The translations under genes were made by a program, and so were the position numbers. Below are positions 3,142 through 20,038 of a stretch of 45,432 nt of DNA, piece after piece. The notes under the pieces are model-generated. The model searched no databases. It was not told the DNA's origin and saw nothing but the letters and a program-made list of their open reading frames with translations. Origin of the DNA: Leptospiraceae bacterium (GTDB taxonomy: Bacteria; Spirochaetota; Leptospiria; Leptospirales; Leptospiraceae); the NCBI GenBank assembly GCA_022402465.1, contig JAKRSH010000010.1, positions 1 to 45,432 on the forward strand, read 5' to 3'. Position 1 is the stretch's first letter; each line of letters begins with the position of its first letter.

Positions 3142-4515
3142 ATGGCAATAGCCAAAGAAAAGAAATCAACTGAAGAACCAATTGAGAAACAGCTCTGGAA
3201 ATCTGCCGACAAATTGCGTAAGAACATTGATGCAGCAGAATATAAGCATATTGTTCTTGGACTTATCTTTCTAAAATACATCTCAGACGCCTTTGAAGAA
3301 CTTTATAATAAATTGAGTTCCGCAAAAGTTGACTATGCGGGAGCGGATCCAGAAGATAAGGATGAATACAAGGCTGAAAATGTTTTCTTCGTTCCTGCTG
3401 TTGCACGTTGGTCTTTTCTCTTATCCAAAGCCAAACAACCTGAAATTGGGAAGATCGTCGATGATGCTATGGATTCCATTGAGAAAGAGAACCCTTCCTT
3501 AAAGGATGTTTTACCTAAAGTTTTTGCCAGGGGCAATCTAGATCCGACGACCTTAGGCGGACTCATAGATCTGATTGCAAATATTGCCTTAGGAAGTGCT
3601 AAGGCAAGAAGTGCGGATGTTCTTGGACATGTCTTCGAATATTTCTTGGGTGAATTTGCGCTAGCGGAAGGTAAGAAGGGAGGACAGTTTTATACTCCAA
3701 GAAGCGTGGTAGAGCTACTAGTAGATATGCTAGAACCATATAAGGGACGAGTTCTTGATCCATGTTGTGGATCAGGTGGAATGTTTGTTCAATCGGAAAA
3801 ATTTGTCACCGAACACCAAGGTAAACTGAATGATATCTCCATCTATGGACAAGAATCCAACCAAACAACTTGGCGACTTGCGAAGATGAATCTTGCTATA
3901 CGTGGGATTGATAGTTCCCAAGTGAAATGGAACAACGAGGGATCTTTTCTAAATGATGCTCATAAAGATCTAAAAGCTGATTTTGTAATCGCCAACCCTC
4001 CGTTTAATGATAGCGACTGGTCGGGAGATCTACTTCGAAGTGATGGACGTTGGCAATATGGAAGCCCACCTAACGGAAATGCGAATTATGCTTGGATACA
4101 GCATTTCCTCTACCATCTAAGCCCAAGTGGGCATGCTGGTTTTGTTCTAGCAAAAGGATCTCTCACATCCAAGACATCCGGCGAAGGAGATATCCGTAAG
4201 TCACTCATTGAGGCTGATCTTCTGGATTGTATTGTAAATCTGCCTGGTAAACTTTTTCTCAATACCCAAATTCCTGCTTGTCTATGGTTTCTAAATCGCA
4301 ATAAGCCAGCACACCGTAAGAAAGAAATCCTCTTTATCGATGCACGTAATTTAGGACACCTCATCAATCGTCGAACCTTAGAATTTACCGCAGAAGATAT
4401 AAAGCAAATCACTGATACATATCGAATTTGGAAGACGCCCAATAAGAAAAAATACGAAGATAGCAAAGGCTTTTGTTATTCGGCGAGTATCGATCGAGTA
4501 CGAGAGCTAGACTAA
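3142..4515 (+). CDS. hsdM: Type I restriction-modification DNA methyltransferase subunit, ended early by an in-frame TAA
   Basis: HsdM is the adenine-N6 methyltransferase subunit of a type I system; it works with HsdS as the methylase and with HsdR as the restriction complex. The N-terminal helical HsdM domain (about residues 15-130) is followed by the methyltransferase domain with [12 protein letters not shown] (SAM-binding motif I, near residue 206) and NPPF (catalytic motif IV, near residue 285). The frame ends RVRELD then TAA at 4513-4515, but translation past it in the same frame gives VLTPGRYVGLPDDEDDFDF and runs to a TAG at 4678-4680. Family members read DYVLTPGRYVG at this place, so the stop sits where a Tyr codon (TAC/TAT) is expected. 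The product would be 457 rather than 512 residues, without the C-terminal helices that normally contact HsdS. ATG at 3142 follows a GGAGA ribosome-binding site. Confidence 0.93.
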
Positions 4516-4680
4516 GTGCTCACACCAGGACGTTATGTCGGGCTTCCCGATGATGAGGATGATTTTGACTTCAAAGAAAGATTCACAAGTCTAAAGGCAG
4601 AATTTGAGGCACAGCTAAAAGAAGAGGCAGAGCTAAACCAAAAGATATTGGAGAATCTTGCCAAGGTGAAAATCGGATAG
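4516..4680 (+). pseudogene. hsdM: Detached 3' end of hsdM
   Basis: These 54 sense codons continue the hsdM frame directly after the TAA and encode the conserved LTPGRYVG box and a C-terminal helix rich in Glu and Lys that normally completes HsdM. The first codon is GTG, so re-initiation right after the stop is conceivable and could make the tail as a separate peptide. Without re-initiation or stop readthrough it is not translated. A single-base sequencing or assembly error would also produce this picture. Confidence 0.8.
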
Positions 4681-6566: not shown

Positions 6567-6672
6567 TGAAAATTCGTTGAGTGAATGGAAGGAATGCAAA
6601 TTGGAAAACTGCTTGAATTGTGATAAATTTGTAAAAAAGAATTATTTTCGAGGGTCAGTTAATGGAAAATGA
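6556..6672 (+). pseudogene. hsdS: 5' fragment of an hsdS specificity gene
   Basis: A 38-codon frame from ATG at 6556 contains SEWKECKLENCLNC. The intact hsdS at 10567 begins MKEWKECKILEIV, so this is the N-terminus of a second specificity subunit, whose first residues precede the first target-recognition domain. The coding match is at protein level, while the matching codons differ mainly at third positions, so it derives from a different hsdS allele rather than a fresh copy. The frame then runs into the start of the dinD fragment and stops at 6670-6672. Everything else of this hsdS is missing. Confidence 0.75.
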
Positions 6673-7048
6673 TCTAATCCACTCACTAACAATCAGTTTT
6701 GAAGGACATGCACAGAATACTGATAATAATATGGAATACTGGCTTACACGAGATTTGCGATATTTGTTAGGTTATACAAAATGGGATAACTTCCTGAATG
6801 TAATTTCAAAAGCAAGAACCGCATGTGAAATATCAGGACATGAAATACAAGACCATTTTGCCGCTGTCGGGAAAATGGTAGACTTGGGTTCTGGAAGTAA
6901 ACGTGAAATTCCAGATATCAGACTTCTTGCCGATTTCGCACCTACAGTCATTTTAAAGGTTAAGTGTTTTACAACGAAAATTGCAATTCACAATTATTTT
7001 AGAGGAATATTTTCACAGGAGACAGAACATTGTATACAGCTTTTGTAG
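6662..7048 (+). pseudogene. dinD: Truncated dinD (DNA-damage-inducible protein D) fragment
   Basis: Residues about 20-90 of the 128-residue frame match the N-terminus of the DinD family: an EYWLTRDLRYLLGYTKWDNF segment, then KARTACEISGHEIQDHF and GSKREIPDIRLL. E. coli DinD, about 270 residues long, has the same order (W-x-AR-x-LG-x-LLGY, then AKEAC-x-NSGH-x-I-x-DHF, then GS-x-AKR). After RLLADF the similarity stops, and the last 35 residues (ending HCIQLL) do not fit the family, so the gene is cut at about one third and joined to unrelated sequence. DinD is known in E. coli as a LexA-regulated protein that affects RecA filaments, and family members often sit next to type I restriction genes. 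The fragment is unlikely to be active. Confidence 0.75.
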
Positions 7049-7111
7049 ATATAAGTAGCTTTAGAGAAATTAATATCAATTATTGGTCTCTAGATTTCAA
7101 TGTAGTTGTTC

Positions 7112-7882
7112 ATGAGCAATAAAAGGTCATATTCAAATAAAACACTGGGTTTGTTATGGGGTAATTCAGGAAATATTTGTGCTTTTCCAGGCTGTAATCA
7201 AATTTTGACTAATCAAAAAACACCAAAGGACAACTCAATCGTAGTTGCGGAGATTGCTCATATTGTAGCAGTAGGTGAAAAATATCCAATCACGCCCAGA
7301 CCAGATGGAAATTTTCCAAGAGAAGATTTAAATAAATATGAAAATTTAATTTTACTCTGTCCAACCCACCACACAATTGTGGACAAACAATCAAATACCT
7401 ATTCAGTTGACGATTTAAGAAAATGGAAAAGTTTTAGGGAAGATGAACATTTACGGGGAATTTATGAAGGCTATCAAAATCTTGGCTTTGTAGAACTTGA
7501 ACAGATTCTTAAAGCTATACCACTAGCAGAGCAAGGCGCTTCAGATCCTGACTTTAATTTACTTGGAATTAGGGAAAAAATAAAAAAGAACCAACTTTCA
7601 CATCAGGCCGAAAAACTGCTAAAATTCGGATACCAGAGCCTTAATCAAGTCGAATCCTATATAGAGGGTCTTGCTTCTGTTGACACGAGCTACCCTGAGA
7701 GATTAAAATCTGGATTTATGAATCTTTACAAGGAAATTGTGAATACAAGGCTCCAAGGGGACGCGCTTTTGCTGGCATTGAAAGAAAGAATTATTTCAAA
7801 TAGAACAGACACTTTGTTGCATGCCGCAGCCCTTTCAGTGATATTATATTATTTTGAAAAGTGTGAGATTTTTGAAAAATGA
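7112..7882 (+). CDS. HNH nuclease effector of an ABC-three-component (ABC-3C) system
   Basis: The N-terminal 110 residues form an HNH endonuclease domain: CAFPGC (first zinc or structural Cys pair), EIAHIVAVG (the catalytic-region His in an E-I-A-H setting), an Arg/Asp-rich loop, and NLILLCPTHHTIVD with the second Cys and the paired His residues. The C-terminal half (about residues 140-256) is helical without a known catalytic motif and fits the C-terminal domain shared by ABC-3C effectors. The stop overlaps the next start (ATGA at 7879-7882), and the next two genes are the middle component and the DUF2326 ATPase, so the three are one translational unit. The expected role is DNA cleavage once the ATPase senses invasion; this is inferred from the family. 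ATG at 7112 is preferred over an upstream TTG at 7106. Confidence 0.85.
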   Translation: MSNKRSYSNKTLGLLWGNSGNICAFPGCNQILTNQKTPKDNSIVVAEIAHIVAVGEKYPITPRPDGNFPREDLNKYENLILLCPTHHTIVDKQSNTYSVDDLRKWKSFREDEHLRGIYEGYQNLGFVELEQILKAIPLAEQGASDPDFNLLGIREKIKKNQLSHQAEKLLKFGYQSLNQVESYIEGLASVDTSYPERLKSGFMNLYKEIVNTRLQGDALLLALKERIISNRTDTLLHAAALSVILYYFEKCEIFEK

Positions 7883-8103
7883 TATTACCTACTAAACATA
7901 TTAAACTTGAGAACAGTATTTTTTATGTTGGAGGTTTAATTCTCATTGAGAATATAGATGGTGAAACTGTATCCTCATTATGGGGAAAAATATCTCAAAA
8001 AGGGAAACTAAATTCATTTGAAAAGTTCGTTTTGGGTCTTGATTTTCTATTTTTGATCGGTGTAATTGATTTTCAACAAGGACTACTAAAGAGAATTAAA
8101 TGA
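7879..8103 (+). CDS. ABC-3C system middle component (MC6-like)
   Basis: This 74-residue protein opens MILPTKHIKLENSIFYVGG and contains TVSSLWGKI and FEKFVLGLDFLFLIGVID. This is the pattern of the small middle components, MC6 type, that sit between the effector and the DUF2326 ATPase in ABC-three-component systems. It is a small helical adaptor with no catalytic residues. ATGA overlaps on both sides (7879-7882 and 8100-8103) indicate strict translational coupling with the nuclease and the ATPase. I judge the family by the sequence pattern and the gene order together. Confidence 0.85.
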   Translation: MILPTKHIKLENSIFYVGGLILIENIDGETVSSLWGKISQKGKLNSFEKFVLGLDFLFLIGVIDFQQGLLKRIK

Positions 8104-9827
8104 TTTATTCGGTCAAAGCAAACAAAAAAGGATTCAAGTTAGTTAATTTCAAGAAAGGAATAAATCTCATTCTATCCGAGAGAACCTCAGAATCCTCGCA
8201 AAAAGATTCTCGAAACGGTTCGGGCAAGTCTCTTCTGATTGAAATAATAGATTTTTGTCTTGGAGCAAATTTCAACAAAAAAAGCAAACTTTCTCATGAT
8301 ACTTTAAAGGACTGGATTTTCACAATTGAAGTAGGATTGCTAGATATGAAAATCGCGGTTACTAGATCCATCAAAGACCATAACCATATTGATTGGCAAA
8401 TTTTGGGAAAGGATAAAAGAGATAATTTACCATTAGAAAATCCATCCACAATTGATTCATGGCGATTATTTTTAGGCGAGGTTTTCTTTTTCATAAAAAG
8501 TTCAGAATCTAATCTTTCGTACCGAACCTTAATGAGTTTTTTAATTAGAAAAGGTTTAGATGCATACACTGAACCATTTTCTACATTTAAACAATCAAAT
8601 GAATTAGTTAAGCAAATAACAAATGCTTATTTTTTAGGTCTGCCTTACGAATATGCTTTTGAATGGCAAAAAATTGAAGATGAAAAGAAAACTTTAGATA
8701 TTCTAAAAAATAACAATAATACAGGTGCATTCAAACGATTCATTGGGAATCGCGGGGAATTGGAAGCAGAAATTAGAGATAAAGAAAGATCAATCGAATC
8801 TACAGAAAAGCAGCTTAAGTCATTTCGCGTTCATGAGCAGTATGAAGATATTGAAAATAAAGCTAACACTTTAACATCACAAATCCACGGAAAAAGTAAC
8901 AACAATATTATACATAAAAAGCAGATTGAACAATTAAATTCTATTATTAATGAAGAAATGCAGGCCGAAAAACTAGACTCTTTAGAAATTTACAAAAGAG
9001 CTAAAATTGAAGTCCCTGAAATGGTAAAAAAGAGGCTTGATGATTTAAAGCTATTTCACACTCAACTTCTCACCAATAGAAAATCATATTTACAAGAAGA
9101 AATAAATAAGCTAAATCTAGAAATCAAATCTAATACAGCACAAATAAGTAGTCTTACAGAAGATCGTGCTAAATTGCTTAACATATTACAAACTCATGGG
9201 GCTCTTAGGGAATTTACAAAATTGAATGAAGATCATACCAGAAACGTATCTGCACTTGAAGAATTAAAAATAAAATTACAAAATCTTAGTAGGTTTGAAG
9301 AAGGTTTAAGCGATATTAAAATTCAAAAAGAATCATTGCACAAAAAAGTCATGCTAGATTTAGCAGAAAGAGAAAAGTCGAGAAAACATGTTATGGATAT
9401 CTTTGATGAATACTCCAAATTTTTATACGAAGCATCAGGACACTTAATCATTAATGCTAAAGACAAAGGAGGTATGGGGTATAACTACAAAATTGAAATA
9501 AAAAGATCTGGAAGCGAAGGAATTGAAAAGATGAAGATTTTTTGTTATGATCTCTTGATAGCTAGGCTTCTAGCAGAACACAAAAAGGGTCCTATGTTTT
9601 TAATCCATGATAGCACGCTATTTGAGGGGGTTGACGAAAGACAAAAAGGTCGTGCTTTACAACTTGCAGAACGCGAAGCCAAGAAATATGGTTTTCAGTA
9701 TATAACTTTTTTTAATACTGATAGCTTGCCATCCCCAAAAGAGTTAGGTCAACTGGATATACACGGTATAACTCGTTTAACGCTTACAGACAAAGAAGAT
9801 GGATGTTTACTAGGCTTAAGATACTAA
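8100..9827 (+). CDS. DUF2326 SMC/Rad50-like ABC ATPase of the ABC-3C system
   Basis: The 575-residue protein has an ABC ATPase head split by a long coiled coil. The Walker A motif NGSGKSLLIEIIDFCLG lies near residue 40. Residues about 185-430 are rich in Glu, Lys, Leu and Gln in a coiled-coil pattern. The C-terminal head half contains MFLIHDSTLFEGVDERQKG near residue 500, which holds the Walker B strand and D-loop-like region. This is the DUF2326 arrangement. In ABC-3C systems such ATPases are thought to detect foreign DNA or stalled replication and license the linked effector, here the HNH nuclease. No transmembrane segment is seen, so it is not a transporter. It starts within the ATGA overlap with the middle component. 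Its base composition is AT-rich like the rest of the cargo. Confidence 0.88.
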   Translation: MIYSVKANKKGFKLVNFKKGINLILSERTSESSQKDSRNGSGKSLLIEIIDFCLGANFNKKSKLSHDTLKDWIFTIEVGLLDMKIAVTRSIKDHNHIDWQILGKDKRDNLPLENPSTIDSWRLFLGEVFFFIKSSESNLSYRTLMSFLIRKGLDAYTEPFSTFKQSNELVKQITNAYFLGLPYEYAFEWQKIEDEKKTLDILKNNNNTGAFKRFIGNRGELEAEIRDKERSIESTEKQLKSFRVHEQYEDIENKANTLTSQIHGKSNNNIIHKKQIEQLNSIINEEMQAEKLDSLEIYKRAKIEVPEMVKKRLDDLKLFHTQLLTNRKSYLQEEINKLNLEIKSNTAQISSLTEDRAKLLNILQTHGALREFTKLNEDHTRNVSALEELKIKLQNLSRFEEGLSDIKIQKESLHKKVMLDLAEREKSRKHVMDIFDEYSKFLYEASGHLIINAKDKGGMGYNYKIEIKRSGSEGIEKMKIFCYDLLIARLLAEHKKGPMFLIHDSTLFEGVDERQKGRALQLAEREAKKYGFQYITFFNTDSLPSPKELGQLDIHGITRLTLTDKEDGCLLGLRY

Positions 9828-9851
9828 TATTCATTACGGTAAGGAAACGAA

Positions 9852-10028
9852 ATGAAAGCCTGTGCGGACGTATATAAGAAGTATTTTGAGGACTTCGCAA
9901 GAACAAAAGACTACTATTTTATTCTAGGAACTACATTGAAGCATCATTATCTAGCGCGGAATCCTTTTGTAATCATTGGAGACTTTCGTCCTAAGAAAAT
10001 TACTCAGCCAGGGCTGTTCGGGAATTAA
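9852..10028 (+). CDS. Small ORF, 58 residues, possible C-terminal fragment
   Basis: An ATG at 9852 preceded by AAGGAA opens a 58-codon frame with YFILGTTLKHHYLARNPFVI and a short Pro/Lys tail. The residue pattern looks like real protein, especially the aromatic-rich LGTT/HH/NPF stretch, but I cannot name a family. Its shortness and the abrupt start suggest that it may be the 3' end of a larger gene that was lost. It sits 24 bp after the ABC-3C operon and ends 2 bp before the next start. Confidence 0.45.
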   Translation: MKACADVYKKYFEDFARTKDYYFILGTTLKHHYLARNPFVIIGDFRPKKITQPGLFGN

Positions 10029-10030
10029 CT

Positions 10031-10570
10031 ATGGACTGCTTGCATTTTTTCTCTACTGTTCTTCCGAACTGGTTAACTGCTATTGGCACAATAGGTGCTG
10101 TTATAACTTCTCTTTGGTTTTCTTACCAGTCGAATAAGATTAAAGTTAAAGGGTCTGCTCAATATATGAAAAAATGGATTCTGCCCTTTGGACTTCATCG
10201 AAGTGAAATAGCATTATTGAAAATCGTAAACAAAGGTAAAGTCCCTATTATAATTCAATCTGTTCATGTAGAATTCAAACCAAAAAATGGGAGAACTTCG
10301 ATGTTAATTCCCGATCCTAATTTCGGATTAATAAGTGCGCCCCTTCCAGCAAGACTTGAATTTAGTGATGAATTTACACTTCAATTAGAGAAAAATGCAT
10401 TGGAGAAAATTCTAGAAGAAAACCCTAACTCCAAATCTATTGCATTTTATGCAATGACCAAACTAGACGAACGAATTGAGCTAAAAAATGATCCTCAATT
10501 AGATGATTTCATCCATAATTGGAAGTTAAAACTAACAGAGACACAAGCGAAATCTGAGGAGTCCGTATGA
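10031..10570 (+). CDS. Small protein with one N-terminal membrane helix
   Basis: I do not recognise this 179-residue protein. A single membrane segment (about residues 10-30, WLTAIGTIGAVITSLWFSYQ) is followed by a beta-rich, probably cytoplasmic domain with KIVNKGKVPIIIQSVHVEF, a pattern seen in small immunoglobulin-like or adaptor domains. It begins 2 bp after the 58-codon ORF and overlaps hsdS by 4 bp (ATGA at 10567-10570), so it is translated together with the specificity subunit. A membrane protein fused into a restriction operon is unusual and may be cargo picked up with this hsdS allele. Confidence 0.65.
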   Translation: MDCLHFFSTVLPNWLTAIGTIGAVITSLWFSYQSNKIKVKGSAQYMKKWILPFGLHRSEIALLKIVNKGKVPIIIQSVHVEFKPKNGRTSMLIPDPNFGLISAPLPARLEFSDEFTLQLEKNALEKILEENPNSKSIAFYAMTKLDERIELKNDPQLDDFIHNWKLKLTETQAKSEESV

Positions 10571-11742
10571 AAGAATGGAAAGAATGTAAAATTTTGGAAA
10601 TTGTAATTTCAGCAAATACAGGTTTAGATGCAATTAAAAGAGCACCTATTGTAATTCAAAATACTGGGATAAAATGTTTGAGAATTCAAGATGTCTCTCA
10701 GCGTAAAAAATATGATGATTGGGGATTCACGACAGTCGAGAATAGAAATTTTGAAAAATTTCGATTAAAAAAGAGCGATATTATTTTAGCGAGAACTGGT
10801 GGATCCATTGGTGTAAACCTATTTATTGATTATGATTTAAATTCAGTTTTTAACAATGGCCTCATTCGGATACGTGCAAATGAAAAACTTTGTGATTCAA
10901 AATATCTCTACTACAACTTTAGAACTTCAAATTATAATAGTTTTATAGAGTCAATATCGGGTGGCACTTCCACTCAACCAAATATGCAAATAAATTCTTT
11001 GCTAAGTTTTCCCATCCTACTTCCTCCTCTCGCCGAACAAAAAGCCATCGCAGGCGTTTTGTCGGCCTTAGATGATAAGATTGATCTTCTGCATCGCCAG
11101 AACAAAACTTTGGAATCTATGGCGGAAGCATTGTTTCGGCAGTGGTTTGTGGAAGAAGCAGATGAGAGTTGGGAGGAGGGAAAATTGGGGGATGTCATTG
11201 AATTTAACCCATTGCGATCTCTTCCCAAAGGATCAATTGCTCCTTATCTTGAAATGTCGAATGTTAGCTCATCATCATTTCATCCAGAAAATTGGTATAA
11301 TCGCGAATTTTCTTCCGGAATGAAATTTAGAAATGGGGATACTCTTTTAGCAAGAATTACTCCATGCCTGGAAAATGGTAAATCATGTTACGTTACATTT
11401 CTTGAATCGGGGCAAATCGGATGGGGTTCAACAGAGTATATAGTTATGCGCGCGAAAAATGGAATTCATCCATTAATGACTTACGCTTTGGCAATTAATA
11501 AAGATTTTCGGGATTATGCAGAGGGTTGCCTTGAAGGCTCTAGTGGACGGCAGAGAGTTAATCTTGACCATTTGAAGGAATTTACTATTTTATTACCTAA
11601 AAGTCTCTCAGTCTTTAATGAAAATATGGAAACGTTAGAAAAAAAACTCCATAATAATTTTTTACAAATCCGCTCCCTTGAAAAGCTGCGTGATACTTTA
11701 CTGCCGAAGTTGATGGGTGGGGAAGTGAGAGTGGGGGTTTGA
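10567..11742 (+). CDS. hsdS: Type I restriction-modification specificity subunit
   Basis: HsdS reads the DNA target for the type I complex. The 391 residues show the usual layout: target-recognition domain 1 (about 1-150), central conserved helix (LLPPLAEQKAIAGVLSALDD to FRQWFVE, about 155-200), target-recognition domain 2 (starting WEEGKLGDVIEFNP, about 205-350) and the distal conserved helix (RSLEKLRDTLLPKLMGGE, about 370-391). The conserved helices are visibly richer in G and C than the two recognition domains, a mosaic typical of domain exchange. It appears intact. The 5' end is coupled to the membrane-protein gene, and the 3' end abuts a GTG start at 11743. Partial copies of the two ends of hsdS genes occur at 6556-6672 and 13184-13285. 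Confidence 0.95.
   Translation: MKEWKECKILEIVISANTGLDAIKRAPIVIQNTGIKCLRIQDVSQRKKYDDWGFTTVENRNFEKFRLKKSDIILARTGGSIGVNLFIDYDLNSVFNNGLIRIRANEKLCDSKYLYYNFRTSNYNSFIESISGGTSTQPNMQINSLLSFPILLPPLAEQKAIAGVLSALDDKIDLLHRQNKTLESMAEALFRQWFVEEADESWEEGKLGDVIEFNPLRSLPKGSIAPYLEMSNVSSSSFHPENWYNREFSSGMKFRNGDTLLARITPCLENGKSCYVTFLESGQIGWGSTEYIVMRAKNGIHPLMTYALAINKDFRDYAEGCLEGSSGRQRVNLDHLKEFTILLPKSLSVFNENMETLEKKLHNNFLQIRSLEKLRDTLLPKLMGGEVRVGV
11665..11742 (+). repeat. hsdS 3'-end direct repeat, copy 1
   Basis: These last 78 bases of intact hsdS match 13208-13285 without gaps. By eye about 68 of 78 bases agree, and 8 of the 10 differences are silent. Together the copies flank the HTH-doc gene pair. Confidence 0.85.
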
Positions 11743-12750
11743 GTGAAAGAACTTACAGAATCAGATGTAATCAGGCAGAATGTATTAAATAACAATTATG
11801 CACTGGAAAAAATCGAATCTGACCTTCGTCTGGGAGGAATCCACTGGGAAGAAGAGCAAATATTCACTAAGACCCAAGTTGCTGAAATTTTGAAAATAGA
11901 TGAAAGGACAATAGATAGATATATTGAGAAGCATGCCTCAGAATTATCCAGGAACGGTTATAAGATACTAAAAGGGGAACCTCTCCGAAAACTCAAAAAG
12001 CTTTTTGGTGACGACATGAATGTCGTTACCAAAACCACGATTTTAGGCGTATTTTCGTTTAAAACAGTCTTAAACCTAGCGATGCTTGTGACAGAAAGCG
12101 AAATGGCAAAAGTAATCCGAAGTCGAATCCTAGACATTGTTTTAGATGTTGTTGCAGAAAAGACGGGTGGTCACACGAAATTTATCAATCAAAGAGATGA
12201 AGATTTTTTACCTTCAGCATTAAAAGAAAATAGTTACCGTAAAGAATTTACTGATGCATTGAATAATTACCTTGAAATGGGAGTTCAGAAATATGCAATT
12301 TATACAAATCGAATTTATCAAATTGTATTTTTAGAAAATGCATCAGAATACAAAAAAATTCTTAAATTGGCAAGTCGAGATAAGGTTCGAGAAACATTCT
12401 ATGCGGAAGTCTTAAATGCTATTGCAAGTTTTGAGCATGGACTATCAGTTGAAATGGAAAACGCTTTCAATAAAAAAGGGAGTCGCCTTTATCCAAAAGA
12501 GTTAGATGAATTAATTGAAATAGCTTCAAAGAATCCATACCTTCATCCCTTTATAGAAGATGCTCGTATCAAAATGGCTAGTAGGGATTTGGGTTTTAGA
12601 GATGCACTCCATCAGAAACTTGAAAAATATTTACGTTCCGTCCCTGAAGAAGATTTCGACCGGTTCTTAGGTGAGGCGAGTAAATCATTAGAAGAAAGAT
12701 TATCGGAACCTGAAACATTAGATGTTTTTAAAAGATTAAAAAATCGATAA
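11743..12750 (+). CDS. HTH DNA-binding protein paired with a Doc toxin (probable antitoxin)
   Basis: The 335-residue protein starts with GTG directly after the hsdS stop. An N-terminal helix-turn-helix (FTKTQVAEILKIDERTIDRY, about residues 44-63) is followed by a segment FSFKTVLNLAMLVTESEMAKVIR and a long helical C-terminal region. Proteins of this layout are often annotated as DNA-binding partners of death-on-curing genes, and here the doc gene begins 2 bp downstream. The expected role is antitoxin and autorepressor. It is much longer than the 73-residue phage P1 Phd antitoxin, and the region that would neutralise the toxin cannot be identified from sequence alone. The pair is bracketed by hsdS 3'-end copies, which implies that it was inserted as a unit. 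Confidence 0.72.
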   Translation: MKELTESDVIRQNVLNNNYALEKIESDLRLGGIHWEEEQIFTKTQVAEILKIDERTIDRYIEKHASELSRNGYKILKGEPLRKLKKLFGDDMNVVTKTTILGVFSFKTVLNLAMLVTESEMAKVIRSRILDIVLDVVAEKTGGHTKFINQRDEDFLPSALKENSYRKEFTDALNNYLEMGVQKYAIYTNRIYQIVFLENASEYKKILKLASRDKVRETFYAEVLNAIASFEHGLSVEMENAFNKKGSRLYPKELDELIEIASKNPYLHPFIEDARIKMASRDLGFRDALHQKLEKYLRSVPEEDFDRFLGEASKSLEERLSEPETLDVFKRLKNR

Positions 12751-12752
12751 AA

Positions 12753-13187
12753 ATGGAAACTCAGATATTCTACTTCGATATACATCATGCTATTGAGGTT
12801 CATGATTGGATCATTTCTAATACAGGAGGACTTAATGGAAACAGAGAAATAGGGTTGCTGGAAAGTGCACTTTTTCACATTCGAAATGATGACTATTATT
12901 CGACATTTCTAGAAAAATTGAGACATTTAATTATCGCCATAAATAAATTTCATCCATTCAATGACGGAAATAAAAGATCTAGTTTAGCGTTAGGTGCTTA
13001 TTTTTTAGAAATCAACGGTTATGGTTATTGTATTGAGAGGTTTATTTTGGAAATGGAAAATATCGTAGTATGGCTAGCCGAAAATAAAATTTCAGAAAAA
13101 TTACTGTTGGAAATTTTAAATTCAATTATAGAAGAAGAAGAGTTTTCCGAAGGATTGAAAATAGAAATTATTCAGAGTGTAACATGA
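12753..13187 (+). CDS. doc: Doc/Fic-family toxin (death on curing)
   Basis: This is a 144-residue Fic-fold protein of the Doc type. It starts FDIHHAIEVHDW, has GGLNGNREIGLLESAL (the typical Doc N-terminal loop) and the active-site motif HPFNDGNKRSSL near residue 67, with the catalytic His, the anion-hole Asn-Asp-Gly and the Lys-Arg ending. Phage P1 Doc phosphorylates elongation factor Tu and stops translation; this protein may use the same or another target. It follows the HTH protein by 2 bp, as expected for an antitoxin-toxin operon. Its stop overlaps the start of the hsdS 3' remnant (ATGA at 13184-13187). Confidence 0.9.
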   Translation: METQIFYFDIHHAIEVHDWIISNTGGLNGNREIGLLESALFHIRNDDYYSTFLEKLRHLIIAINKFHPFNDGNKRSSLALGAYFLEINGYGYCIERFILEMENIVVWLAENKISEKLLLEILNSIIEEEEFSEGLKIEIIQSVT

Positions 13188-13285
13188 CTTCGAATTTTAA
13201 CACAATTCAAATCCGCTCTCTCGAAAAGCTACGAGATACTTTGTTGCCGAAGTTGATGAGTGGGGAAGTGAAGGTGGGGGTATGA
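13184..13285 (+). pseudogene. hsdS: 3' fragment of an hsdS specificity gene
   Basis: A 33-codon frame ends with IQIRSLEKLRDTLLPKLMSG and EVKVGV, the distal conserved helix of HsdS. It matches the end of the intact hsdS (LLPKLMGGEVRVGV) with two amino-acid changes, while most base differences are silent. It therefore comes from another hsdS allele that was under selection as a protein, not from a fresh duplication. The fragment is fused by ATGA overlaps to doc upstream and to the 1114-residue gene downstream, so it may still be translated as a short coupling peptide. Confidence 0.88.
13208..13285 (+). repeat. hsdS 3'-end direct repeat, copy 2
   Basis: This is the second copy of the 78-base hsdS terminal segment, in the same orientation as 11665-11742. 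It could support recombination that removes the HTH-doc pair. Confidence 0.85.
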
Positions 13286-16200
13286 GTAAATTCACTTCGC
13301 GACAATCAAGAATTATTAAGAAGCTACAAATAATTGGAAGCGGTTCAGTGGCATTTTTTAAGGATTCAATCTTATTATTAAATCTAGAAGGCTTTGATAC
13401 TAAACATCATTTAATTTCTCATTCAATGAGGGAAATTGAAAGTTCTATTCGAGAAATTTTAACCTTTATTTATCCTGAGAAATCTAACAATCCTGATTGC
13501 GTAGCATTGGGTGAGGATCAACATTTAATAAGTATTAATAAATGTTTAAATATTTTGCGTATCTTAGATAAAGATGAAACAGCAATTTTTTGGAAGAAGT
13601 TAGGAAAAAAGAAAGGGAATTATAATTTAGCCAAAAATGCTCATCGAGATAACCTTGATTATAGAAGATTTTCAAACGACTTTTTAAGTTATTGGAATGA
13701 TTTTGAGCAATTTTTAGAATTAGTTTTAGATAAGCTTAATTTGATTTATTTTAAATTCATTTCAGAGTTAGATCACTTATTATCCATTGAAAATCCTGGA
13801 AATGGTGAAATGTATGCAGTAAAAAAGAAATTACCGAAATTAGGTCAATTTTTTCACTATTTCATGGTAAATTGTAAATCTATCAATTGGTTTGAAACAC
13901 TCCTCAATTCTGGTCACCTATCAGTATCTAAAGATTATATCCAAGCAAATTCGGATGCATACTCTTTCTATTGGCCACCTATCCAATATTTGAATTCACT
14001 TGTCCAAAAAGAAAAATATGATTTAGTATGGAAGGTAATTTCTGCTATCCCGGATACAGATTCCTCTGGTTTTTATTCACAAATCACAAGTTTAGTAAAT
14101 AAATTACCAATAGAATTCCGTATTCAATGGATGCAGAGGCTGATCCTATGGGTGCAACTGAATACAGATCAAGAAATCCCAAATTCGGAACCATTCCGAG
14201 TCTTAATGAGAGATTTGTTGGATTCCAAGCCCTCTTTGGTTTTGGATTTTATGAGATTCTTTTTCCGACTGAATCAAGATACGAACAAAGATTATTCGGA
14301 ATTTGCTCATCCTTTGCCTAATTCTCGGTTGTCTAAGTATGAATATTTCGAATCTCTACAGGCTCTAATTTCTTCCTTTCTTAAACAAGATAATCCTCTA
14401 CGGTTAGAATTCTTTTCATTTATATCTGACTTGATGAACCAAGCCTTGACGATTGAATATCCAAGAACTTCAAATGGAGAAGACCGTTCTTATATTACTA
14501 GATCTTCCATCATGGAAGACATGCAGAATTACAACCATCATTTATCTGACAAATTTGTATCAATCCTGCGAGATGTGGGTAATGAGATCTGCGAGTTAAA
14601 TTCCAAAGATTTTTTTGAAATCCAAAACATTCTTAAATCCTACAATTGGATTCTCTTCCAAAGGATATCTCTGCATTTTGCTAGAGTTTATGGATTTGAA
14701 TTGGATTGGGAGAATACAAAAAATCTTCTTCTGTTTGAAGATGGAAAGTATATCCGAGATATTTCTTTTCGTAATGAATACTTCTACCTACTTAAGAATG
14801 TTTATCCAAAGTTAATCGATAATGAAAAAGAAAATTTCTTAAATGAACTAGATAGAATTGCAAGAGAAGAGGAATTAAGATTTCAATCGCATAATAGTGT
14901 AGATTCTAATTCTCAATCATCTGAGGATTTCCAGTTAGACTTTCCTAAAGATTCTGTTTACAATGAGATTCTCTGGTCATTTCTTTCATCAATCAAAGAT
15001 TATTTAGAAGGGCAGTGGCGAATTAAGTTCGAAAATATTAAAGAAATTTATAATAAAGATGATCGTCCTCCCCAATATGCAGCCTACCATTGGAGTTTTG
15101 TCGGACCGCTAAGTCCAGTTGATAGAACCGAAATTGCGAATATGAGAATTGAAGATCTAATTGATTATCTTGAGAGATATGAGCCAGAAGATTCAATTCG
15201 AGGTGGGCACAGTCGAGAGGGCTTGAACCGTCAAATCGAACAGGATGTAGAGAAGAATCATCTTAGATATTTGGAAAGCTATAAGTTATTCATGGAATCC
15301 AAGATTCATATCAAATTCCATAAAGGAATCTTATATGGAATCCGCAATGCAATTTCTAATAAGAATTTGTCAGACTTCAATCTTGTTGTTGATTACTTAA
15401 TTGAATTACATGCAAGATTTGAACAAACTCCAGAAGGTCTATACTTTCCCAATGAAGTTCTTACCGATTCGATCTTGGGAATTTATCAAACTCTTTATGA
15501 ACAATTTGATAACTTCGAAAAGTCAGAACGAAATATAGAATTGATAAGAAATATATTTCCATATTTGGAAGATTCATCGCCTAAGGCTGATTTTGATACT
15601 AAAAATGATCCAATCCATAATAGTATTAACTCTATACGTGGAAAGACTTTACACGCATTCTTCAAATGCATTCTTTGGTTGACTGTCGAAAATGACCAAT
15701 GGAACAATGTTAGATTTTCAGAACCGATTCTCGAAACTATTTTGGAGAAAGTTAAAACTCATTTTACCTCGTCGGACTATAAGAATTTTCGTACAGATCG
15801 GTCAGTATTAGGTCAATACCTAAGATTTATCTTTCAAATTAAGGAAGCTTGGTTGAAAAATAATATTCAATGGTTACTACCTGAAGATAATAAAACAATT
15901 GGAAATATAACTTTTTATACCTATATACAAAGAGGTGGCTTCTCAGAAACCATATATCCTTTTATCAAATCGTGGTATATAGATCTGATAAATGAATTAC
16001 CTAATTTAGATTTAAATAATGATGAAGGAAATGATATTAAGCCATTTTCTATCGCTGAACATATGATGATGATTTATGGATATGGCTTAGAATCCTTAGA
16101 GCCTGGAGGGGTTCTTGACTTATTCTTCCTTAAAGCACCTGATTTCTTAAAAGGAAATGCGATTAGGTTTTTGGGGACAAAAATTCCAAAAGAAGATTCT

Positions 16201-16626
16201 TTCATTCAGTTAGCGAAATCTCTCTGGCAATGGAGAGTGGATTCAGGCTCAATTTGCAGCAATGAGTTAGATGAGTTCTTAGGATGGTGGCAAGGTGATT
16301 TATTTGAAAGCGAATGGATTTTTCCGTTCCTTTCTTTATACAAGCAGAACAGCGATATTTCAGTTTCTGAATTACAAATTTACAAATTGATTGAAATACT
16401 CGATGAGAACTTTTATAAAAATCCGAGATTGGTTATCCAAATTTTGGATTCCTACACCCAAACCAATCGATACTATTTTAGCCCAAAGAAAGACGGTAAT
16501 TTATGGTCGATTCTGAAAAAAGGATTGGGATTGGAAGATATAGAACTCAAAACTTTAACGGAGGATATTATACATAGATTGGGTTCGTTCGGGTATTTAG
16601 ATTACAGAGAATTGCTTGGAATTTAA
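13282..16626 (+). CDS. Large uncharacterised helical protein, 1114 residues
   Basis: I cannot give this protein a named function. The N-terminal 60 residues contain KLQIIGSGSVAFFKDSILLL and HHLISHSMREIESSIREIL. This helical opening, and the following WPPIQYLNSLV and IPDTDSSGFY stretches near residues 235-265, recall a widespread family of very large unannotated proteins, a likeness recalled from memory only. The rest is predominantly helical with many Trp, Phe and Leu positions and no Walker A motif, nuclease motif or membrane segment, so an alpha-solenoid scaffold is plausible. The RE-x3-S-x-RE helix could be HEPN-like, but this is weak. It begins inside the hsdS remnant (ATGA at 13282-13285) and lies between hsdS and hsdR, so it is probably co-expressed with them as defence cargo. 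Confidence 0.8.
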   Translation: MSKFTSRQSRIIKKLQIIGSGSVAFFKDSILLLNLEGFDTKHHLISHSMREIESSIREILTFIYPEKSNNPDCVALGEDQHLISINKCLNILRILDKDETAIFWKKLGKKKGNYNLAKNAHRDNLDYRRFSNDFLSYWNDFEQFLELVLDKLNLIYFKFISELDHLLSIENPGNGEMYAVKKKLPKLGQFFHYFMVNCKSINWFETLLNSGHLSVSKDYIQANSDAYSFYWPPIQYLNSLVQKEKYDLVWKVISAIPDTDSSGFYSQITSLVNKLPIEFRIQWMQRLILWVQLNTDQEIPNSEPFRVLMRDLLDSKPSLVLDFMRFFFRLNQDTNKDYSEFAHPLPNSRLSKYEYFESLQALISSFLKQDNPLRLEFFSFISDLMNQALTIEYPRTSNGEDRSYITRSSIMEDMQNYNHHLSDKFVSILRDVGNEICELNSKDFFEIQNILKSYNWILFQRISLHFARVYGFELDWENTKNLLLFEDGKYIRDISFRNEYFYLLKNVYPKLIDNEKENFLNELDRIAREEELRFQSHNSVDSNSQSSEDFQLDFPKDSVYNEILWSFLSSIKDYLEGQWRIKFENIKEIYNKDDRPPQYAAYHWSFVGPLSPVDRTEIANMRIEDLIDYLERYEPEDSIRGGHSREGLNRQIEQDVEKNHLRYLESYKLFMESKIHIKFHKGILYGIRNAISNKNLSDFNLVVDYLIELHARFEQTPEGLYFPNEVLTDSILGIYQTLYEQFDNFEKSERNIELIRNIFPYLEDSSPKADFDTKNDPIHNSINSIRGKTLHAFFKCILWLTVENDQWNNVRFSEPILETILEKVKTHFTSSDYKNFRTDRSVLGQYLRFIFQIKEAWLKNNIQWLLPEDNKTIGNITFYTYIQRGGFSETIYPFIKSWYIDLINELPNLDLNNDEGNDIKPFSIAEHMMMIYGYGLESLEPGGVLDLFFLKAPDFLKGNAIRFLGTKIPKEDSFIQLAKSLWQWRVDSGSICSNELDEFLGWWQGDLFESEWIFPFLSLYKQNSDISVSELQIYKLIEILDENFYKNPRLVIQILDSYTQTNRYYFSPKKDGNLWSILKKGLGLEDIELKTLTEDIIHRLGSFGYLDYRELLGI

Positions 16627-16736: not shown

Positions 16737-16811
16737 ATGCACAAGCTTTCACCTCATGATTCAATCGTCTATCTTGAATTAAGTAGAATCCTTATGGACA
16801 CAGATAGATGA
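16737..16811 (+). CDS. Short leader ORF overlapping the hsdR start
   Basis: A 24-codon frame starts ATG at 16737 (MHKLSPHDSIVYLELSRI) and its TGA overlaps the hsdR ATG as ATGA at 16808-16811. No clear Shine-Dalgarno sequence precedes it. It could be a leader peptide that couples hsdR translation or the tail of a lost gene. The overlap arrangement, repeated across this island, is the main reason to record it. Confidence 0.3.
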   Translation: MHKLSPHDSIVYLELSRILMDTDR

Positions 16812-19800
16812 ATTCCTCCAAAATCTCTGAATCCCAGATTGAAGAATATGCGATTCAGTTACTTGAGAAGCAGGGTTACCGATACATCTATGCTCCATCC
16901 ATAGCCCCAGATTCAGAATCACCAGAGCGAGAGAGATTTGAGGATGTAATTCTACTTGAAAGGTTGCGTTCCGCTGTCGCCAAACTGAATCCAGACATTC
17001 CTATACAGGCCCAGGAAGACGCTGTCAAGCAGGTCTTGAGAATTGCCTCTCCAGATCTTCTAGTGAACAATGAAACATTTCATCGCATGTTGACTGAGGG
17101 AGTTGCAGTAAGTTACAAGCAGGATGGTAGTATGAGGGGCAATCGAGTCTGGCTTGTTGACTTTTCTAATCCAGATAACAATGATTTTATTGCAGCCAAT
17201 CAATTTACGATCGTTGAGAACAACCAGAATAAACGTCCCGACATCATTCTATTCATAAACGGATTGCCTCTTGTGGTTATTGAACTGAAGAATGCAACGG
17301 ATGAAAATGCCACCATTCATTCCGCATTCAATCAAATCCAAACTTATAAGCAAGCAATCCCTACTTTATTTACCTACAATGGATTTATCATTCTCTCGGA
17401 TGGGCATGAAGCTAAGGCAGGGTCTGTTTCATCGTCAATGAGTCGTTATATGTTCTGGAAGAGTTCTGATGGTAAGACAGAAGCACCAAAGCTGATTGGA
17501 CAGCTGGAGACAATGATCCAAGGAATGCTCAATAAGGAAACTCTTCTAGATCTTCTTAGACATTTTGTTGTTTTTGAAAAATCCAAAAAGGAAGATAGCG
17601 TAACTGGAATCAATACCATACAGACAGTTAAGAAGATAGCGGCATACCACCAGTACTATGCAGTCAATGCCGCAGTGGAATCTACCAAAAGAGCGTCTGG
17701 TTTTACTCAAGCTAAGGATTTACCAGTTGAAGTAAATCAACCAGAAGTTTATGGATTGAAAAATATCCAGAAATCAAAGTTCGGTGATAAGAAAGGTGGT
17801 GTAGTATGGCATACCCAAGGATCGGGCAAATCTCTTTCCATGGTTTTTTATACTGGCAAAATTGTACTAGCTCTAGAAAACCCAACTGTGCTCGTTATTA
17901 CGGATCGCAATGATTTAGATGATCAATTGTTCGATACATTTTCATCTTGTACACAATTACTGAGACAAGAGCCCAAACAAGTTGAAGATAGAAACCAATT
18001 GAAAGAACTTTTGAAAGTAGCCTCAGGCGGAGTTATCTTTACAACAATTCATAAGTTCCAACCCCAAGAAGGCAATGTCTACGAAACACTTTCAGATAGA
18101 AAGAATATCATCGTTATAGCCGACGAAGCCCATAGGACTCAATATGGATTTAAAGCAAAAACCATCGATGACAAGGATGAATCAGGAAATGTCATCGGTA
18201 AGAAAATTGTATATGGTTTTGCCAAATACATGAGGGATGCCTTGCCCAATGCAACCTATCTTGGTTTTACAGGAACCCCAATTGAGAATACCGATGTAAA
18301 CACCCCAGCCGTATTTGGAAATTATGTGGATGTTTATGATATTGCTCAGGCTGTTGAAGATGGTGCCACAGTTAGAATCTATTATGAAAGTCGTCTAGCT
18401 AAGATTAACCTTTCCAAAGAAGGAAAGATACTTGTTGAGGAATTAGATGAAGATTTAGATCAAGAAAATCTCTCCAACACTCAGAAAGCCAAAGCCAAGT
18501 GGACTCAACTCGAAGCATTGATAGGGAGTGCCGATCGAATCAAGAGAGTTGCACTTGATATAGTCAATCATTTTGGTAGTAGACAAGAAGTGATGGAAGG
18601 CAAAGCGATGATCGTTGCTATGTCAAGAAGAATCGCCGCAGACTTATACAAAGCAATCATTGATTTGAGACCAGAATGGCATGACAAAGATTTAATGAAA
18701 GGAGCAATTAAAGTAGTAATGACAGCTTCATCTTCAGATGGGCCAGAAATATCCAACCATCATACTACCAAAGATGAAAGACGGAAACTTGCTGATAGGA
18801 TGAGAGACCCTAAGGATGAACTTAAATTGGTTATAGTTCGAGATATGTGGCTCACAGGATTTGATGCACCATCCTTACACACTCTCTACATAGATAAACC
18901 CATGAAGGGACACAATCTGATGCAAGCTATAGCTCGTGTTAATAGAGTTTATAATGAGAAGAAAGGAGGATTGATTGTTGACTATCTAGGTATAGCTTCA
19001 GATCTAAAGAAAGCACTTTCTTTTTATGCAGATTCTGGAGGTAAAGGTGACCCTGCCGAAACCCAAGAGAAAGCTGCTCAAATCATGTTAGAGAAATTAG
19101 AAGTGGTCTCTCAAATGTTTCATGGATTCCCTTATGAGAATTTTTTCTCTTCAGATACAGGTAATAAGCTCAATATCATCCTCGCAGCTGAAGATCACAT
19201 ACTCGGATTAGATAATGGTAAGAAACGATACATTGATGCAGTTACAGCACTTTCTCAAGCATTTGCAGTTGCTATTCCACATGAACAGGCTCTCGATGCC
19301 AAGGATGAAGTCTCTTTTTTCCAAGCTGTTAAATCTAGATTAGTTAAATTTGATAGTAGCGATAAAGTAATGTCAGACCAAGAACTGGAGACTTCCATCC
19401 GCCAAGTTATAGACAAAGCGCTTGTTACAGAACAAGTGATTGATGTTTTTGATGCAGCTGGAATTAAAAAGCCTGACATCTCTGTGCTTTCTGAAGAATT
19501 TCTATTAGAAGTTAAGAACATGGAGCATAAGAACATAGCTCTAGAAGTTCTAAAGAAATTGCTCAATGATGAGATCAAGGGTCGAATGAAGAAGAATCTT
19601 ATCCAAAGTAAGAGTCTGATGGAGATGCTTGAACATTCAATTAAGAAATACCATACTAAGATCATAACAGCAGCAGAAGTTATTGAAGAACTTATCAACT
19701 TATCAAAAGAGATTCATTCCATGGATAAAGAGCCTGAAGAAATGGGGCTTTCGGATTATGAGTATGCTTTCTATACAGCAATCGCCAATAACAATAGTGC

Positions 19801-20038
19801 AAGAGAAGTGATGGAGAAAGAAAAACTCCGTGAACTTGCCGTTGTTCTTTATAAAAGTGTCAAAGAGAATGCATCTATTGACTGGACTATCAAAGAGAGT
19901 GTCAAAGCCAAATTAAAAGTCATTGTAAAAAGAATCCTTCGCCAATTTGGCTATCCACCTGACATGCAGATGCTTGCAACAGAGACTGTTCTTAAGCAAG
20001 CTGAGCTTATAGCTGAAGAACTTCTAGCAAAATCATAG
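16808..20038 (+). CDS. hsdR: Type I restriction enzyme motor/nuclease subunit
   Basis: HsdR translocates DNA with ATP hydrolysis and cuts it. The 1076-residue protein appears intact. Visible parts are the N-terminal nuclease domain with RPDIILFINGLPLVVIELKN (the PD-ExK core, about residues 143-162), the Walker A motif HTQGSGKSLSM near residue 335, the DEAH box ADEAHRTQYG near residue 438, the TGTPIE motif near 487, and helicase motifs DMWLTGFDAPSLHTLYIDKP and ARVNRVY in the second RecA-like lobe. The C-terminal 300 residues form the helical domain that docks to the methylase. The gene is 181 bp after the 1114-residue gene and may have its own promoter there. It ends 5 bp from the convergent HU-like gene. 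With hsdM interrupted, restriction without protective methylation would be harmful, so the state of HsdM matters for this gene. Confidence 0.96.
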   Translation: MNSSKISESQIEEYAIQLLEKQGYRYIYAPSIAPDSESPERERFEDVILLERLRSAVAKLNPDIPIQAQEDAVKQVLRIASPDLLVNNETFHRMLTEGVAVSYKQDGSMRGNRVWLVDFSNPDNNDFIAANQFTIVENNQNKRPDIILFINGLPLVVIELKNATDENATIHSAFNQIQTYKQAIPTLFTYNGFIILSDGHEAKAGSVSSSMSRYMFWKSSDGKTEAPKLIGQLETMIQGMLNKETLLDLLRHFVVFEKSKKEDSVTGINTIQTVKKIAAYHQYYAVNAAVESTKRASGFTQAKDLPVEVNQPEVYGLKNIQKSKFGDKKGGVVWHTQGSGKSLSMVFYTGKIVLALENPTVLVITDRNDLDDQLFDTFSSCTQLLRQEPKQVEDRNQLKELLKVASGGVIFTTIHKFQPQEGNVYETLSDRKNIIVIADEAHRTQYGFKAKTIDDKDESGNVIGKKIVYGFAKYMRDALPNATYLGFTGTPIENTDVNTPAVFGNYVDVYDIAQAVEDGATVRIYYESRLAKINLSKEGKILVEELDEDLDQENLSNTQKAKAKWTQLEALIGSADRIKRVALDIVNHFGSRQEVMEGKAMIVAMSRRIAADLYKAIIDLRPEWHDKDLMKGAIKVVMTASSSDGPEISNHHTTKDERRKLADRMRDPKDELKLVIVRDMWLTGFDAPSLHTLYIDKPMKGHNLMQAIARVNRVYNEKKGGLIVDYLGIASDLKKALSFYADSGGKGDPAETQEKAAQIMLEKLEVVSQMFHGFPYENFFSSDTGNKLNIILAAEDHILGLDNGKKRYIDAVTALSQAFAVAIPHEQALDAKDEVSFFQAVKSRLVKFDSSDKVMSDQELETSIRQVIDKALVTEQVIDVFDAAGIKKPDISVLSEEFLLEVKNMEHKNIALEVLKKLLNDEIKGRMKKNLIQSKSLMEMLEHSIKKYHTKIITAAEVIEELINLSKEIHSMDKEPEEMGLSDYEYAFYTAIANNNSAREVMEKEKLRELAVVLYKSVKENASIDWTIKESVKAKLKVIVKRILRQFGYPPDMQMLATETVLKQAELIAEELLAKS

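Follow-up and report, generated by a model that had tools for sequence, protein, structure and literature searches.

A 1114-residue protein encoded within a type I restriction operon of a Leptospiraceae bacterium carries a C-terminal sensor half homologous to that of Dsr1 (defense-associated sirtuin 1), an N-terminal head with its own conserved motifs in place of the SIR2 domain, and relatives that repeatedly lie next to restriction genes. We propose, with slightly better than even confidence and without any experiment, that it is a second-line immune protein, probably acting by abortive infection, whose HEPN-fold head cuts RNA. The HEPN fold of the head is supported but not demonstrated; that the protein acts as an RNase, is triggered by phage and is functionally coupled to the restriction enzyme is inferred.

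The locus

The window (the whole 45,432-nucleotide stretch that was analysed, contig JAKRSH010000010.1) contains a restriction island with the gene order hsdM, PDC-M19A-like gene, PDC-M68 pair, hsdS, PDC-M59A/B, 1114-residue ORF and hsdR:

3142-4515 (+): hsdM, named from its own sequence (N6-methylase motifs) without a profile search
4697: PDC-M19A-like gene, between hsdM and the PDC-M68 pair
7106-9827: HNH/ABC-ATPase pair matching PDC-M68
10567-11742 (+): hsdS, type I specificity subunit (Pfam Methylase_S, E-value: 7.1e-24; PADLOC Specificity_I)
11665-11747 (+): complete hsdS 3' end, one arm of a direct repeat
11743-12750 (+): PDC-M59A gene, HTH-type, RhuM-like (PADLOC PDC-M59A, E-value: 1.8e-99)
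12753-13187 (+): PDC-M59B gene, Fic/Doc toxin-like (Pfam Fic, E-value: 1.3e-12; PADLOC PDC-M59B, E-value: 3.4e-30)
13184-13285 (+): hsdS C-terminal remnant ORF of 33 codons, MTSNFNTIQIRSLEKLRDTLLPKLMSGEVKVGV, whose stop overlaps the start of the 1114-residue ORF
13208-13290 (+): the other arm, an 83-bp copy of the hsdS 3' end with 86.7% identity to 11665-11747
13282-16626 (+): 1114-residue protein with a putative variant HEPN-like head and a Dsr1-type alpha-solenoid sensor (ORF, PADLOC Dsr1, structure model)
16808-20038 (+): hsdR, type I restriction subunit (PADLOC REase_I; NCBIfam hsdR)

The frame from 13282 to 16626 is open throughout its 1114 codons and ends 182 bp upstream of hsdR, which begins at 16808. 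As a sequence-only reading of this DNA had described, its start codon shares the tetranucleotide ATGA with the stop of the 33-codon hsdS-tail ORF; this remnant can now be identified as an arm of the 83-bp repeat. hsdM stops at an in-frame TAG (4513-4515), and its usual C-terminus (VLTPGRYVG...) is readable in the same frame at 4516-4680. Because hsdM ends early in this way, the operon of the window may be impaired or non-restricting. No Rfam family was found in the window.

The Dsr1-type sensor half

13837-16623 (+): Dsr1-type HEAT-like alpha-solenoid, residues 186-1114 (profiles, structure model, sensor tree)

Approximately 900 C-terminal residues of the protein form a HEAT-like alpha-solenoid, whose homologue is the sensor half of Dsr1. 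Residues 409-897 match the PADLOC Dsr1 profile (PDLC04166) with an E-value of 2.4e-24; the NCBIfam Dsr1 match is weak (E-value: 3.6e-10) and at 38.2 bits does not reach the equivalog cut-off of 1400 bits. Among relatives, the PADLOC profile is matched by proteins of L003 (E-value: 4.1e-43, profile positions 318-1111) and L004 (E-value: 1.3e-34), and Dsr1 matches were likewise obtained for haloarchaeal STAND fusions (E-values: 1.7e-18 to 5.5e-40), the TIR-headed protein of L062 (E-value: 7.4e-115) and the partial protein of L063 (E-value: 4.9e-259). Neither a SIR2 nor an ATPase match was found for the 1114-residue protein in Pfam, PADLOC or NCBIfam; the same Pfam search readily detects SIR2_2 in genes of L004, L062 and L064.

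When the whole protein was modelled with AlphaFold2 (16 aligned sequences), it was predicted to be all-helical (pLDDT 78.7, pTM 0.57), in agreement with the earlier expectation of a mainly helical protein. The Foldseek matches of the full model were generic HEAT/karyopherin solenoids that are uninformative about function, a search of a viral structure library returned nothing significant, and Pfam and PDB sequence searches with the protein, a head profile and a sensor profile gave no real match. From the Dsr1 profile matches, the absence of SIR2 and the HEAT-like model, we conclude that the sensor half is of Dsr1 type and the head is not. The sequence-only reading had missed both this link and the exchange of heads described below. 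Its proposal that the REIESSIREIL and WPP.QYL/IPDTDS stretches mark a wide, unannotated family holds in that these are conserved columns, but the family is not wholly unannotated given the PADLOC match.

Relatives and exchange of the head

Relatives of the protein were found in Spirochaetota, Patescibacteria and Streptomyces, and the sensor alone was also found on haloarchaeal plasmids. No relative was identified in other genomes of the window's family or in phages. Scans of genome and viral contigs with single-protein patterns returned nothing, and the alignment-based scan was successful in genome contigs only.

The head of the window protein is shared by L013, L014, L035, L036 and six Streptomyces copies. 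A second HEPN-like helical head, with SLREILYP and AHH motifs, is fused to the sensor in L037 and encoded by a separate gene of 180-190 aa just upstream of the sensor in L038, L039 and L040. Comparison of the two HEPN-like head types with hhalign gave a probability of 18% and an E-value of 0.0013, so that a link between them is only suggestive. Other loci differ further. In L004, a separate SIR2 gene is coupled to the sensor. In L062 (8536-13150) and L064 (1542-3331), a IIG restriction-methyltransferase is directly followed by a SIR2 gene and then by a Dsr1-type sensor with a TIR head; SIR2 and TIR together are an unusual double NAD-type effector set. The L049 protein (7508-11005) has a LexA-type DNA-binding (HTH) N-terminus, then an unassigned helical head and a Dsr1-type sensor, and the haloarchaeal plasmid proteins of L005-L010 (1360-1510 aa) have a STAND/AAA NTPase fused before the sensor.

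A tree of 23 sensor regions groups the SIR2-coupled sensor of L004 with that of L013, which carries a HEPN-like head (36% identity over 927 aa, support 100/99); this group lies next to the window protein, whose exact place is less certain because its branch is long. The sensors with the second head and those with STAND domains each form one clade. As judged from these sequences, the sensor is retained while the head varies (window-type, second HEPN-like, SIR2, SIR2 with TIR, and STAND).

Linkage to restriction genes

Restriction genes of type I, II, IIG or III adjoin 11 of the 12 loci with readable flanks when the Streptomyces and haloarchaeal copies are left aside:

type I: window, L013, L035, L063
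type II: L038
type IIG: L004, L037, L040, L062, L064
type III: L014, with a recombinase gene in between

The only unlinked locus among the 12 is L049; L036, L039 and L050 have flanks that could not be assessed and were not counted. The count is small and is not set against a formal background rate, and similarity played a part in which loci were sampled. Even so limited, the count bears out the repeated defence linkage anticipated by the sequence-only reading, and a position inside restriction operons suggests that the protein backs up restriction. In three of the type I loci (the window, L013 and L035), the gene follows hsdS: the L013 relative starts 12 bp after it, which is a comparable placement to that in the window, and the L035 relative overlaps it by 29 bp. 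In L063, the sensor gene overlaps the start of hsdR, and the contig breaks off without covering the head. For the six Streptomyces copies there is no clear restriction linkage (a helicase of uncertain type is encoded near the L031 copy), and the sensor therefore does not need a restriction enzyme. The haloarchaeal copies are likewise without restriction linkage. As a separate observation, an insertion-sequence transposase gene interrupts hsdM in L035 (12229-14543), and the Dsr1-type gene of the same operon is intact.

In the window, the two 83-bp copies of the hsdS 3' end form a direct repeat that exactly flanks the PDC-M59A/B cassette. In the simplest reading, inferred from this arrangement, the 1114-residue gene once stood directly behind hsdS, and recombination at the end of hsdS brought in the cassette. 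This end of hsdS has the look of a site at which accessory genes dock. The gap between hsdS and hsdR may, according to published work, be a hotspot at which defence genes recombine (PMC12255303), and TgvAB is an unrelated defence system embedded in a type I operon (PMC11411939).

The restriction linkage can be understood in more than one way. Guarding of the restriction enzyme, simple passage and independent sensing are alternative relations to restriction, and our estimates for the competing readings are not exclusive of the main explanation. If the hsdS 3' end is a recombination hotspot for unrelated defence genes, then the protein may be a passenger that acts alone and has nothing to do with restriction. 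This remains a real possibility, if not the probable one, as the unrelated PDC-M59A/B cassette was inserted at the same point and both published cases above fit it. It is opposed by the relatives at IIG, II and III enzymes, where there is no hsdS tail to recombine with, and by gene starts that overlap hsdS or lie within 12 bp of it (L013, L035 and the window remnant).

A closer tie would exist if the sensor monitored the restriction complex (HsdS/HsdM or the neighbouring enzyme family) and fired when a phage anti-restriction protein disabled it. Such a guard would account for the contact with hsdS in the window, L013 and L035 and the overlap with hsdR in L063, as well as for the repeated pairing with IIG, II and III enzymes, and it has a precedent in PrrC with EcoprrI (PMC3710099). 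We nevertheless consider it unlikely for three reasons. First, the partner enzymes are mutually unrelated and so offer no single conserved contact surface. Second, the linkage is missing from the Streptomyces and haloarchaeal copies. Third, hsdM of the window is truncated yet the gene is intact, and an unrestrained toxin would be costly.

The head domain

13282-13836 (+): head, residues 1-185 (aligned with nine other heads; structure model; PDB folds)
13420-13434 (+): codons of H47-x-x-R50-E51 in helix 41-63 (invariant in 10 of 10 heads)
13642-13647 (+): codons of H121-R122 (invariant in 10 of 10 heads)

Ten heads align with low overall identity and nine invariant residues (H47, R50, E51, W104, H121, R122, L149, Y156 and L166). 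An automatic choice of the best-conserved patterns across the full protein picked out exactly the HxxRE and HR motifs of the head, a result that fits the conserved, effector-like N-terminal domain foreseen earlier. The accompanying statement that the protein has no known catalytic motif should be qualified rather than withdrawn, as H47, R50, E51, H121 and R122 may form a catalytic constellation, for now only a candidate.

Modelled alone, the head is predicted to be all-helical (pLDDT 83.6, pTM 0.79). The highest-probability Foldseek matches in the PDB are HEPN toxins (8xdj_C, probability 0.93; 8xeh_B, TMt 0.61), with E-values of approximately 0.5 that are not significant, and none of the Pfam HEPN families matches the head. 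In the published HEPN layout, an Ex3[KR] motif lies in helix 2, followed by an insert of variable length and a catalytic histidine before the last helix (PMC3710099). The window head agrees with this layout in helix order and in the place of its Ex3R motif (E53-S-S-I-R57 in helix 41-63; Ex3[KR] is present in 8 of the 10 heads), its insert (of variable length, after helix 41-63, and Cys-rich in L014 and L036) and its invariant histidine, which precedes the last long helix. The canonical Rx4-6H motif is not conserved across the 10 heads; H121 is invariant and is followed by R122. HEPN families that keep the histidine and lose the arginine have been described, and catalysis can be absent from HEPN domains that lack the motif (PMC3710099). 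We consider it likely, though not shown, that the head is a true HEPN fold of a variant kind; whether it is an RNase is close to an even question, the activity being inferred.

Because the canonical motif is absent, the head may be non-catalytic. It could then be an adaptor or oligomerisation domain of HEPN-like fold, through which the restriction enzyme, or some other effector, is recruited or restrained, and the separate SIR2 gene that precedes the TIR-headed sensors indicates that heads may work with partners; we think this distinctly improbable, however, as five residues (H47, R50, E51, H121 and R122) invariant across three phyla at approximately 25-30% identity are typical of an active site, and known enzymes (SIR2 and TIR) occupy the head position in relatives.

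Proposed mode of action

DSR2 releases its SIR2 domain when its C-terminal domain binds the tail tube protein of a phage (PMC10973363). In the second-line, RNA-cutting reading that we prefer, the Dsr1-type solenoid would similarly keep the N-terminal head inactive until the solenoid binds some part of the phage, which the analogy with DSR2 suggests is a structural protein, and releases the head. The freed head, a putative divergent HEPN fold, would most likely cut cellular RNA, and growth of the infected cell would stop once restriction has failed against the phage.

A broader proposal, which we regard as speculative and rather doubtful, is that Dsr1-type solenoids are the sensor of a wide class of restriction-embedded second-line systems with freely exchanged heads (variant HEPN, SIR2, and SIR2 with TIR), and that the sensor remains bound to whichever restriction enzyme is its neighbour because it detects the failure of restriction (a surviving phage or an anti-restriction protein) rather than one fixed phage protein. 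A housekeeping role was rejected, as no recurring housekeeping context was found. The earlier suggestion of a defence or sensor protein is supported, since the conserved N-terminal domain, the solenoid and the repeated defence linkage that it named as support were all found; no confident match to a non-defence family appeared either.

Comparison with known systems

The protein shares with Dsr1 a homologous alpha-helical sensor over approximately 500-800 residues and a single-gene effector-sensor layout. It differs in lacking the SIR2 NADase, in place of which it has another head of approximately 185 residues, and in the repeated restriction linkage of its family, which is not reported in the Dsr1 papers found. 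With DSR2 it shares an N-terminal effector and a large helical C-terminal sensor (PMC10973363), but it has no PADLOC Dsr2 or PDB sequence match, and DSR2 is absent among the structure matches listed. The effector-sensor logic is also that of the Avs/STAND anti-phage proteins; in haloarchaeal relatives the sensor follows a STAND/AAA NTPase, whereas the window protein lacks any NTPase domain.

PrrC and other HEPN proteins are linked to restriction systems (PMC3710099). Like these, the window protein has a HEPN-like domain encoded within an hsd operon, and RhuM-like and Fic/Doc genes occur in the same type of locus (PMC3710099). Unlike PrrC, it has no ABC ATPase, its head lacks Rx4-6H and its sensor is a Dsr1-type solenoid. 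TgvAB (PMC11411939), DarTG2 in RRDM (PMC12255303) and PDC-M59 occupy the same position between hsdS and hsdR of a type I operon; they are unrelated proteins, and the window family is also found at IIG, II and III enzymes. Because there are precedents both for defence genes embedded in hsd operons (PMC11411939, PMC12255303) and for HEPN proteins with a link to restriction (PMC3710099), we regard the protein as a variant rather than a new category. No Dsr1-type sensor with a HEPN-like head and no restriction linkage of Dsr1 was found in the literature searched, which left subscription papers and preprints mostly uncovered.

With these results, an unnamed ORF becomes a testable immune protein. 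The Dsr1 sensor emerges as a reusable module, with its solenoid joined to SIR2 NADase, TIR, STAND and probable HEPN heads, and the relatives offer material for asking what Dsr1-type sensors recognise. That the family recurs beside four kinds of restriction enzyme suggests that restriction is generally paired with a backup system, an arrangement for which PrrC has so far been the main example.

Other genes of the island

The genes at 7106-9827 form an ABC-3C-like set, in which an HNH protein with CTD10 and an ABC ATPase with DUF2326/CTD10 correspond to PDC-M68A/B. An ORF of approximately 73 codons between these two (7880-8101) could be a middle component. Upstream, the sequence at 6662-7048 resembles, by eye, a truncated DinD-like protein. 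Downstream of the set, a short remnant ORF at 9851-10028, which ends in GDFRPKKITQPGLFGN, is probably the tail of a lost gene.
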